Of a DNA stretch of 22,600 nucleotides, positions 16,389-22,600 are shown one piece after another. The DNA comes from a virus, in the IMG/VR virus record IMGVR_UViG_3300049483_000199, positions 1 through 22,600 of that record. The stretch is one strand, 5' to 3'. The notes under the pieces are model-generated. The model did no database searches and had not been told where the DNA came from. It was given only the letters and a program-made list of their open reading frames with translations. The position numbers and the translations under genes are program-made. The first letter of the stretch is position 1. The number at the start of each line of letters is the position of its first letter.

Positions 16389-16865
16389 ATGCCCAGACTG
16401 ACCGCTGCCGAAGAAGAGGCGATCGTCACCCGGGCCGGCCTGTCGGTCGTCCTGGGTGGCCTCGAGCGGACCGTGCGTCCTCTCGTCATCGCCGACAACC
16501 GCATCTGGAAGAGCAAGGTCGTCGACGCGATCGCCGAGCGTTGGGGAGCGCTCGGCGGCGTGGGCGACTGGAAGGACGTCATCCGGCTCCTCTCGGGGTC
16601 CGAGGACGTCCTGCTCGACCTGCTCCTGGCGTACGACATCGACGCGACGCTCGGCGGTCGCGAGTGGGTCGAGTCGAAGGCAACGGCCCGCGAGCTCCTC
16701 GAGGCGTTCAAGGTCGTCGCTAGAGAGGCCTTCCCTTTAGAGGACAGCGCGCTGGGGTCCTACCCGGCCCTGGTCGGGATGCTCATGCGCGCAGCGGGCG
16801 AGCGGATGTCGGAGCTGCAGGAGCCGGAGCTGCAGGAGCCGGAGAGCTCTACGAGTTCCTCCTGA
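16389..16865 (+). CDS. Tail assembly chaperone, zero-frame product (G-like)
   Basis: A 158-residue acidic, mostly helical protein (TAAEEEAIVTRAGLSVVLGG, then DVIRLLSGSEDVLLDLLLAY), located between tube and tape measure genes, where tail chaperones normally lie. It ends ELQEP-ELQEP and a Ser-rich STSSS. A -1 frame opens at 16724, just after a TAG at 16721-16723, and runs to 17164, so a longer GT-type product is expected. It would coat the tape measure protein during tail assembly. The name rests on position and the frameshift layout. Confidence 0.8.
   Translation: MPRLTAAEEEAIVTRAGLSVVLGGLERTVRPLVIADNRIWKSKVVDAIAERWGALGGVGDWKDVIRLLSGSEDVLLDLLLAYDIDATLGGREWVESKATARELLEAFKVVAREAFPLEDSALGSYPALVGMLMRAAGERMSELQEPELQEPESSTSSS
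16733..16739 (+). promoter_or_regulatory. Probable -1 programmed ribosomal frameshift site CCCTTTA
   Basis: The heptamer is in the correct register: zero-frame codons are CCT (16734) and TTA (16737), preceded by C at 16733, giving X-XXY-YYZ. After slipping back one base both tRNAs re-pair on CCC and TTT. The TTA codon is the only in-frame one I noticed in this GC-rich window. The -1 frame has its last upstream stop at 16721-16723, only 10 nt before the site, and no stop until 17162. Downstream, GGAC (16742-16745) can pair with GTCC (16757-16760), and CCCG (16763-16766) with CGGG (16775-16778). Confidence 0.7.
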
Positions 16866-17164
16866 GCGAGTGGGGGCGCTTCCCGCGCGAGATCGACGAG
16901 GCGCTCACCGATGCGCAGCTGGTGCTCCTGGTCGAGAAGGGTGCGGAGCGCCGGCGACGCGAGACGGACGAGGAGACGGACCGGATGACGATCGCGATGG
17001 CCAACGGCTACGTGATCAGCCGCGACGAGAAGGCTCGTGATCACTGGGTGAGCGCGCGTGAGCGCCGGTCCGGCGCGGCCGCCGAGGTGCAGACGGTCGC
17101 CGAGTACCAGGCCACCAAGGCCCGCCTCGCAGCGCGGTTCCCCGCGAACGTGCAGGTCCACTGA
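16739..17164 (+). CDS. Tail assembly chaperone, -1 frame extension (T part of GT)
   Basis: This frame has no good separate start before its conserved-looking part. It reads a Gly/Ala/Arg-rich linker, then ELYEFLLSEWGRFPREIDEA and LTDAQLVLLVEKGAERRRRE, and a helical C-terminal region to TGA 17162-17164. The LSEWG, then LTDAQ pattern resembles the second-gene part of siphovirus tail chaperones. A slip at 16733-16739 would give a fusion of 117 zero-frame and 141 -1-frame residues (258 in total). GTG 16922 could start a shorter independent protein, but that would cut off the LYEFLLSEWG segment. Confidence 0.72.
   Translation, partial: RGQRAGVLPGPGRDAHARSGRADVGAAGAGAAGAGELYEFLLSEWGRFPREIDEALTDAQLVLLVEKGAERRRRETDEETDRMTIAMANGYVISRDEKARDHWVSARERRSGAAAEVQTVAEYQATKARLAARFPANVQVH
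16812..16841 (+). repeat. Perfect 15-bp tandem duplication in the chaperone overlap
   Basis: GAGCTGCAGGAGCCG occurs twice in a row (16812-16826 and 16827-16841), spelling ELQEP twice in the zero frame and a Gly-Ala-Ala linker in the -1 frame. It lies within the region read in both frames. Confidence 0.9.
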
Positions 17165-19612: not shown

Positions 19613-20061
19613 CCAACGCGGTGGCCGTCATCGGCCTGACCTACGACGGGACGGACGTCCAGCAGAGCGGCTTCGGCATCTTCCTCGAGATCGTCCGGGG
19701 CCTCAACGAGACGCCCGAGGTCCGGGGCACCGACACGGTCGTGCCGGGTCGTGCCGGGCGCATCGCGCGCAACAGGGTCGCGGACCGTCTCCCGATCGAG
19801 CTCCGGGGCATCGTCATGGGCAACGGCGCGAACGAAGCCGCCCAGCGGGCCGACTTCCGGACCAACGTCCTCGCGCTCCGCGCGCTGTTCTCGTCCTCCC
19901 GGGTGCCGGCCAACCTGGTGGCGACGCTCGAGGACGGCAGCACGGCGACGATCTCCGCGCGCCCGCTGCCAGGGATGCTGTGGGACGAACAGGTTGCCTC
20001 GCTCTTCGCCAACGTCTCGGTCGAGCTCGAGTCGGTCGACCCGGAGTGGGTGATCACCTGA
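19609..20061 (+). CDS. Distal tail protein (Dit-like)
   Basis: A 150-residue protein starting at GTG 19609 (GTGA overlap with the tape measure stop). The segments SGFGIFLEIVRGLNETPEVR, GTDTVVPGRAGRIARNR, LPIELRGIVMGNG and a C-terminal SLFANVSVELESVDPEW match the small Dit-type tail-tip ring protein: a beta core with a DTVVPGRAGR loop, an RG-containing strand, and a final strand ending in DPEW. It would form the hub ring between tail tube and tail-tip protein. The next gene follows in a TGATG overlap. Confidence 0.78.
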   Translation: MTNAVAVIGLTYDGTDVQQSGFGIFLEIVRGLNETPEVRGTDTVVPGRAGRIARNRVADRLPIELRGIVMGNGANEAAQRADFRTNVLALRALFSSSRVPANLVATLEDGSTATISARPLPGMLWDEQVASLFANVSVELESVDPEWVIT

Positions 20062-22600
20062 TGCCGTCCATCCCGACGCTCCCGATCGTTGCCGACAGCA
20101 CGCACCATGACAGCGCGGGTGGCGGCGGGTGGTTCGCCTTCCCGGGGAACCCGGCGGTCATGGTCGGGGCGGGTCCGGCGCGGACCGTGACGATCGGCGT
20201 CGTGTTCACGACCTCCTACGCGGCACCGGGATCCGCCAACGGCGAGTGCTACGTCGCTGTCCACGATCACCCGTGCGGTGGCTGGAACGACTACTTCTAT
20301 GTGACGGGAACGGCCCCCCTTACGAGCACCTGGCCTCCGGCAACGGACGGGACATGGGCCGGAGACTTCGTGTTCTCGGTCGCCGACTCGGCGACCGAGA
20401 CGGCGATCTATGTCGTCGTCAAGGCCAACGCGCAGGGTGACGCGACGACGACCCTGACCGGGATCACGCTGTCCGACCCCGCCTACATCGCGGCCGCCTT
20501 CTCGGGGACGCCCCTCTCGGGTCGCTCACCGCTGTCTGTCGCCTTCACCGACGCGACGGATGGAACGCCCGTCGCCTGGCTGTGGGCATTCGGCGACGGC
20601 TCGACCTCGACGGCACAGAACCCGACGCACGTCTACACCTCGGCCGGGGTCTACACGGTCAGCCTCACCGCGACGAACGCGACCGACATCTCGGACACCG
20701 AGACCAAGGTCGCCTACGTCACCGTGTCCAACGACTCGGTCTTCCTCGACGTCTACGAGATCGGCCCGCCGGGCGACACGATCACGTACCTCGCGACCCT
20801 CGAGGGCGCGTTCGACAAGGCCATCCGTCCGGTGCTCAACGACACAGGCTCGGGGCAGTTCTCGATCAACCGGCACGACCCCGACGCGACGGCGGCGAAC
20901 CTCGCCCGTGGCAACCTCGTCAAGGTCCGGATCCCTGAGATCGACGCGGACCCGATCTTCGCGTTCTGGCTCGAGTCGGGGGACTTCACGCTCGTCTCCA
21001 GCGATGAGGAGGGCGGCGAGACGATCACGTTCGCCGGGCGCGGGGCGCTCGCCTACTTCGACTGGGCGCGGTGGCTGGCGGTCAGCTACGTCCTGCCGTG
21101 GTGGGATGTGGGCTGGGCGGGGCTGGTCGCCGGAGAGCCGCCCGCCGGCGCCATCGGTCACGTCTCGATCGCCGCCGGGACGTACTGGCGCTACACCGTC
21201 AACAGCAGCGGGAGGATCACCGCGCGGACCTCGTTCAGCACCGCCGGCGCCGACGCCTGGTACGACAAGCGGCGGAACCTGACGTGGGCTTCCGGGACGG
21301 CGTTCGCCGGCGCCAAGGCGACGCTGATCCAGGTCATGGGCGGCGGGCTCGACAACTACTGGCTCCACCCGTCGGCCGCCGGGATCACCGACGTCCGGGC
21401 GTCGGCTGTCCTCGGGACGCGGACGGAGTTCGCCACGCTCGGAGAGGCTGACGTCACCCAGTGGTGGGACAGCGGATGGGGCGCGCCCCCGGACGGGTCC
21501 CTCGGGTTCGTCTCGTTCGCGGCCGGGACATACCCGCGCTACACCGTGGCGGGCGGCAAGATCACCGCGCGGACCCCGTTCACGACGGGTGGCTTCTCGG
21601 CCTACTACGACACTCGCGCGAAGTACGGGTGGGCGTCCGGGGCCGGCTCGACGACGCTCGTGCGCATCAGCACCGGCGGCTATTCCGGGTACTGGTTCCG
21701 GCCGAGCTGGCCGGGCGTCCGGGACTGGCAGGCCAAGGAGCCGACGGGCACGCTGGTCCCGGGCAAGGTGCTGCGGAGGATCGTCGACGAGGTCCTCTCC
21801 GCGACCCGGCCGTCCCACCCGATGCCGCTGCTCACGGCGGGCTTCACCGCGACGGTGGACTCCGACGGCAACGACTGGACGTCGACGCCGGCGCTCGCCG
21901 GGTTCTCCGCCGAGATCGGCGAGAGCCTCCTCGAGACGGTCGGGAAGATCGTCGCGACGGGCGTCATCGATGTCGAGATGAGCCCCGACCTCGTCCTCTC
22001 CGCGGTCAACGAGCAGGGCCGCGACCTGACGGGCGCGGCGTTCGCGGCGGGCGTCGTCCGCTTCGTGGCCGGCGTCAACATCGCGGCGGAGCTCCGCCGC
22101 GAGGTCACCGGCGGCCCGGTCGCGACGTTCACCCAGGTCATCGGCAACGACGGCTGGGCCCAGGCGACGCTGCCGGACGCCGCGTCACGGGTCACCCGCG
22201 AGACGGCGACCACGGCGGACACGGACGACGAGACCGCGCTCGCGGCCCTCGGCCTCGCCGATCTCCAGGCGCAGCTGCTCCGATCGGACGCCGTGGGGTT
22301 CGCGGTCGCGGTCGGCGACGACGCGGCCAACGGTCTCTACCTTCCGGGGCCTCCGGGGTCGGATCACGGCGCCTGGTGGCTGGGCGACCTCGTCATCCTC
22401 CACACAGGGTCGGGCGAGCAGGACTTCGACGAGGCGACGATCCGCGTCGCCGCGCTGACGATCTCCGAGGGCGCGGCGGGAGACCTCGACGTCGTCCTCG
22501 AGCTCTCGTCGGGTCTCGGCGCCGCGGAGTCCGGGCCCGGATGGGCGGCCGGGGGCTCCTCCGGGTCGGCTCCGACCCCCGGGCGCCCGGTCGGCGGGAC
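20061..22600 (+). CDS. Tail-tip protein (Gp37-like) with PKD domain and duplicated Trp-rich module; 3' end cut
   Basis: One frame is open from ATG 20061 to the window end (at least 846 residues). I read every codon and saw no stop. Order of parts: an N-terminal beta region (about 1-145); a PKD domain (about 147-226) with WLWAFGDGSTSTAQNPTHVY and GVYTVSLTATNA; a region starting DSVFLDVYEIGPPGD that resembles siphovirus Gp37-like tail proteins (LEGAFDKAIRPVLNDTGSGQ, then NLVKVRIPE); two similar modules at about 347-449 and 468-557, each with WWD, GW, AAGTY, RYTV, ITAR and W-A-S-G; then a long C-terminal region (SLLETVGKIVATGVIDVEMS, later RIRVAALTI-like). The last visible residues are Gly/Ser/Pro-rich. 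It follows Dit, so it is probably the tail hub or adhesin that contacts the host. Confidence 0.82.
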   Translation, partial: MPSIPTLPIVADSTHHDSAGGGGWFAFPGNPAVMVGAGPARTVTIGVVFTTSYAAPGSANGECYVAVHDHPCGGWNDYFYVTGTAPLTSTWPPATDGTWAGDFVFSVADSATETAIYVVVKANAQGDATTTLTGITLSDPAYIAAAFSGTPLSGRSPLSVAFTDATDGTPVAWLWAFGDGSTSTAQNPTHVYTSAGVYTVSLTATNATDISDTETKVAYVTVSNDSVFLDVYEIGPPGDTITYLATLEGAFDKAIRPVLNDTGSGQFSINRHDPDATAANLARGNLVKVRIPEIDADPIFAFWLESGDFTLVSSDEEGGETITFAGRGALAYFDWARWLAVSYVLPWWDVGWAGLVAGEPPAGAIGHVSIAAGTYWRYTVNSSGRITARTSFSTAGADAWYDKRRNLTWASGTAFAGAKATLIQVMGGGLDNYWLHPSAAGITDVRASAVLGTRTEFATLGEADVTQWWDSGWGAPPDGSLGFVSFAAGTYPRYTVAGGKITARTPFTTGGFSAYYDTRAKYGWASGAGSTTLVRISTGGYSGYWFRPSWPGVRDWQAKEPTGTLVPGKVLRRIVDEVLSATRPSHPMPLLTAGFTATVDSDGNDWTSTPALAGFSAEIGESLLETVGKIVATGVIDVEMSPDLVLSAVNEQGRDLTGAAFAAGVVRFVAGVNIAAELRREVTGGPVATFTQVIGNDGWAQATLPDAASRVTRETATTADTDDETALAALGLADLQAQLLRSDAVGFAVAVGDDAANGLYLPGPPGSDHGAWWLGDLVILHTGSGEQDFDEATIRVAALTISEGAAGDLDVVLELSSGLGAAESGPGWAAGGSSGSAPTPGRPVGG
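21099..21732 (+). repeat. Internal duplication in the tail-tip gene (about 90-100 codons, two copies)
   Basis: Copy one (about 21099-21404) and copy two (about 21462-21732) encode alignable modules with the same order of motifs: WWD-x-GW, G-x-V-S-x-A-A-G-T-Y, RYTV, ITARTxF, YD, W-A-S-G and a final W-x-x-P. The DNA copies have diverged, so the duplication is old or selected to differ. Confidence 0.7.

Follow-up and report, generated by a model that had tools for sequence, protein, structure and literature searches.

Programmed −1 ribosomal frameshifting of the kind that produces lambda G/GT very probably operates at positions 16733-16739 of the window (the whole stretch of DNA analyzed here, a 22.6-kb IMG/VR virus record), and would yield a GT fusion beside the G protein of a predicted tail assembly chaperone gene. 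The first-pass annotation of this DNA had proposed a −1 shift in the tail chaperone at CCCTTTA, and the comparison with relatives strongly supported this reading: the frame, the heptamer, and the codons across the heptamer (referred to as the codon lock) were all conserved.

Gene layout and slip site in the window

The genes of the tail module were arranged in the order major tail protein, G, T, and tape measure protein, with the major tail protein gene adjoining G and the tape measure gene adjoining T (Table 1); the ORFs of the relatives L002, L004, and L131 placed G/T between the same two genes. Upstream of the terminase gene, where the structural module begins, positions 1280-2203 encode an endolysin-like protein that matched Amidase_2 (E 3.5e-12). 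Positions 20058-22598, which follow the small distal tail gene, hold a frame that ran past the end of the window and matched the Pfam domain PKD_4 (E 2.2e-17); a role at the distal tail or in host contact is probable for its product.

Table 1. Positions of the genes, frames, and signals of the tail module in the window.
Feature	Positions	Strand	Basis
Major tail protein gene, 344 aa	15351..16385	+	phrog_885 major tail protein, E 1e-07
G ORF, encoding a predicted tail assembly chaperone in the zero frame, 158 aa, 17.1 kDa	16389..16865	+	Alignment with 51 members of the family
T frame, −1 with respect to G, open for 438 nt (16724-17161), then TGA 17162-17164	16724..17164	+	Kept in relatives
Slippery heptamer C_CCT_TTA	16733..16739	+	Register, relatives, codon lock
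SD-like element AGAGAGG	16722..16728	+	Upstream scan; excess at family level
Predicted GT fusion, 258 aa, 28.1 kDa	16389..17161	+	Computed: codons 16389-16739, then −1 codons 16739-17161
Tape measure protein gene, 814 aa	17168..19612	+	PhageMin_Tail, E 9.7e-09; phrog_1272 tape measure, E 7.6e-11

Direct reading confirmed the annotated anatomy. The heptamer was in register, with TTC (16731), CCT (16734), and TTA (16737) as the zero-frame codons across it; the last −1 stop (TAG 16721-16723) was followed by the open T frame, annotated as about 440 nt; and positions 16740-16865, read in both frames past the heptamer, gave the annotated overlap of 126 nt. Only one copy of CCCTTTA was present in the window, counting both strands (0.08 expected from dinucleotide shuffles), and this was the only X_XXY_YYZ heptamer in register within the overlap of G and T. 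The TTA codon had been annotated as the only one in frame in the window. This held among the well-supported genes with high GC3, in which TTA 16737 was the only TTA among 543 Leu codons, and the last window gene added 58 further Leu codons and no TTA; it did not hold for a weak ORF (GC3 0.70), which contained one other TTA at position 194. A hungry-codon role for TTA would fit this rarity in the window, but was rejected: TTA is not required, because L038, a relative with 71% G+C, carries CCCTTTC.

Of seven aligned sequences, only the window and its close relative L002 had the Gly/Ala/Arg-rich linker read in the −1 frame. The doubly read stretch also contained a short direct repeat at ~16811-16848 (approximately two copies of the GGAGCTGCAGGAGCC region), in which L002 differed by a 3-nt indel; both frames stayed open in L002.

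Conservation of the T frame, the heptamer, and its codons

Homologues were searched for using motifs of the G or T protein that did not include the heptamer (65, 57, and 80 loci), and 92 non-redundant loci with both the G and T domains were obtained after the removal of duplicates. A single-protein search gave one close relative (L002; 93% DNA identity, with an identical site region), and a very distant relative with 44% G+C, reached via T (L004), had GCCTTCCCTTTAGC at the same place. G was only 21-39% identical to that of the window in most of the 92 loci. T was in the −1 frame of G and overlapped its 3′ end in all 92 loci, and in 90 of them the overlap contained an in-register X_XXY_YYZ heptamer at the aligned place: CCCTTTA (68 loci), CCCTTTC (9), CCCTTTG (7), CCCTTTT (2), TTTTTTC (2), and TTTTTTA (2). 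When the first 74 loci were thinned by G identity, the heptamer was present in every representative at each level: 52 at <70%, 14 at <50%, and 6 at <40%. Since it was kept across relatives, a chance origin of the heptamer was ruled out. The loss of the slippery site from homologues with a T-like frame, which would have argued against the annotated frameshift, was thus the opposite of what was found. CCCTTTA had also been regarded as an oddity of GC-rich DNA, and this view was not borne out: most relatives had 39-59% G+C, and, as judged from these alignments, CCCTTTN is the norm of this tail-chaperone family. The two loci that count against the proposal were the sister contigs L172 (~1976-2043) and L183 (~1994-2061), in which the −1 T frame was kept and TTCCCCCTC, with a run of five C, replaced the heptamer.

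One relative, L131 (JAFGHL010000054.1), was a contig of a Dehalococcoidia MAG in which both the tail module and the slip site recurred; it may point to a host or be a viral contig that was binned. No other contig with the family was found in a search of 294 genomes of the Dehalococcoidia class.

Conservation of the heptamer could reflect a need of G for the peptide Phe-Pro-Leu alone, and Phe-Pro was indeed nearly invariant in G. However, compared with the counts expected from the codon usage of the same loci, the choice of codons was extreme: Pro at the site was CCT in 50/50 cases (14.7 expected), Leu was TTA in 39/43 (6.5 expected), and TTC encoded the Phe before them in 43/43 (19.3 expected). 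Third-codon positions carried 1.76-2.0 bits inside the heptamer vs 0.06-0.9 upstream, and none of the 5721 other codon junctions in G had CCCTTT in register. Moreover, three loci that lost Phe-Pro-Leu (L100, L127, and L116) had TTTTTTC, TTTTTTA, or CCCTTTT in register instead, and only L172 and L183 among the 92 loci approached Phe-Pro-Leu in other codons together with a −1 T. The codon lock and the other heptamers in loci without this peptide indicate that the nucleotides, and not only the peptide, were kept; a purely peptide-based constraint has a next to negligible probability. T may instead be a separate protein, translated from an internal start of its own or through translational coupling, with an incidental overlap. 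Although T-frame starts were present in some loci, such as GTG 16922 in the window and ATG 3429 in L005, they fell within or past the conserved motif (Y/F)E(F/L)LL.EW (YEFLLSEW in the window), and 45/51 representatives, including the window, lacked any T-frame ATG, GTG, or TTG upstream of this motif; T is accordingly predicted to be incapable of starting independently in most loci. A separate T, which also leaves the codon lock of the heptamer unexplained, is highly improbable.

The remaining alternative accepts a shift at this place and attributes it to single-tRNA slippage or another local mechanism (+2 or transcriptional slippage) in place of the tandem −1 slip. L172 and L183 are in its favor because they keep the frame with TTCCCCCTC, which is unable to slip as a classical X_XXY_YYZ heptamer. 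The exact X_XXY_YYZ pattern in the other 90 of the 92 loci, including swaps to TTTTTTC/A that preserve the heptamer logic, argues against it, and transcriptional slippage, described at long A or T runs (PMC3711429), would need a longer and more uniform run. We consider this alternative improbable to a marked degree, and retain the tandem −1 slip at the heptamer. Its place is narrowly defined in L048, L065, and L070, in which the two frames shared no more than 31-34 nt around the heptamer, and the shift is therefore pinned to it. The G stop of these loci was approximately two codons past CCCTTTC (CCCTTTCGAGTAA in L048 and L065, and CCCTTTCGGGTAA in L070); since G ends just past this heptamer, its C-terminal tail is lost and the overlap is reduced to that length.

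Sequence signals upstream and downstream of the heptamer

SD-like stimulators were scored using the definition of PMC4066793, with a range of 6-17 nt upstream of the motif. An SD-like element was present in this range in 45/52 representatives, compared with 20.0 ± 3.0 after the synonymous randomization of upstream codons, and none of 1000 randomizations reached 45/52; no comparable excess was detected at eight control positions in G. Usually, a GGAGG-like tract ended 15-17 nt upstream of the heptamer, and other loci had GAGGT ending at approximately −7. These results showed that a Shine-Dalgarno-like element upstream of the heptamer, a candidate stimulator absent from the first-pass annotation, is conserved across the family. 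In the window, the last G of AGAGAGG was located 5 nt before the first base of the heptamer and GAGG was at the short edge of the range; because of this spacing, a stimulatory effect of AGAGAGG is uncertain.

The first-pass annotation had pointed to the fold of the RNA after the heptamer, and a stimulatory downstream structure was not supported by folds without pseudoknots. At the family level, z-scores against dinucleotide shuffles matched the background at several lengths and offsets of the folded segment, and the downstream RNA of the window (z 0.53) showed no excess over shuffles. The greater folding stability of the downstream region relative to other places is explained by its higher G+C content.

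Predicted products and comparison with known systems

According to the proposed mechanism, most ribosomes would translate G and then terminate, while a minority, with tRNA-Pro on CCU in the P site and tRNA-Leu on UUA in the A site, would slip by −1 to CCC and UUU. Slippage would probably be aided by SD-like base pairing between 16S rRNA and the purine tract upstream. The slipped ribosomes would then read the T frame to 17161 and produce the 258-aa GT fusion, with a computed junction of ...REAFPL-RGQRAG.... Acting as chaperones, G and a lesser share of GT would cover the tape measure protein and recruit the major tail protein.

We tentatively suggest, at a confidence slightly below even, that this is a large and for the most part uncultivated chaperone family in which the G:GT ratio is set by an invariable pyrimidine heptamer (CCCTTTN) and the upstream SD-like element, without a downstream RNA structure. 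If so, this frameshift program would be so far undescribed for tail chaperones, and natural variants (CCCTTTC, TTTTTTN, and the C5 run) would report on the tuning of its rate. The natural series of CCCTTTA/C/G/T, TTTTTTC/A, and CCCCCTC, with the SD-like element at two positions, may be informative on how a G:GT ratio is obtained without downstream structure. The comparative evidence points to a C/T-rich heptamer as the standing slip site of a tail-chaperone family in many metagenomic phages, and gene callers would split or mis-start T in this family.

Systems of the G/GT type make the fusion at a low, fixed ratio; G binds the tape measure protein, T binds the major tail protein, and the proteins are absent from the virion. 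The slippery heptamer of lambda is GGGAAAG, whereas it is CCCTTTA in the window, and an SD-like element upstream of it is conserved across the window's family. In both systems, G/T is flanked by the major tail protein and tape measure genes, and T is in the −1 frame toward the 3′ end of G; they differ in that no sequence similarity is recognizable. The chaperone role of G and T in the window is proposed from the likeness to lambda, for which PMC5009743 gives the background. The same heptamers have been measured in E. coli: C_CC.U_UU.A,.G, and.U shifted above 0.10% without a stimulator, and C_CC.U_UU.C shifted at a high level (Sharma et al. 2014, PMC4066793). The modest activity of C_CC.U_UU.A, beside the stronger C_CC.U_UU.C, suits the low share of GT expected from lambda (PMC5009743), although that study used a reporter and a survey of enterobacterial genes, and not this phage family. 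Many GC-rich phages of the SEA-PHAGES actinobacteriophages (the PRFect set) also have two-frame chaperone genes with −1 slippage; this is the feature in common, and no CCCTTT site is named in the text (PMC10885494).

DNA and protein queries (window, L004, L005, and L025) gave no match among the INPHARED phages, and neither did tblastn with G and the T of the window; therefore, no isolate is tied to the family. The window G protein did not match Pfam Phage_TAC_15 or the PHROG chaperone profiles, and Phage_TAC_15, phrog_1613, and phrog_1442 gave weak matches in one or two of the 52 members (best E 0.0028, 0.00033, and 0.0094, respectively). The AlphaFold model of G (pLDDT 81) had no match in a fold search of the PDB at E <= 0.001, and a sequence search of solved structures gave no chaperone match. 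A viral structure library gave weak matches to the model, including several proteins annotated as tail assembly chaperones, such as N15 GT and Kitkat TAC. Among the papers searched, none with CCCTTT or CCCUUU dealt with the slip site of a phage chaperone; the 2004 survey by Xu, Hendrix, and Duda may list CCCTTTN. Collectively, the putative G and T resemble G/GT in position, frame, and site, and by sequence form a family that reference libraries hardly know: the frameshift is of the familiar −1 type, and its heptamer is uncommonly reported, yet family-wide.
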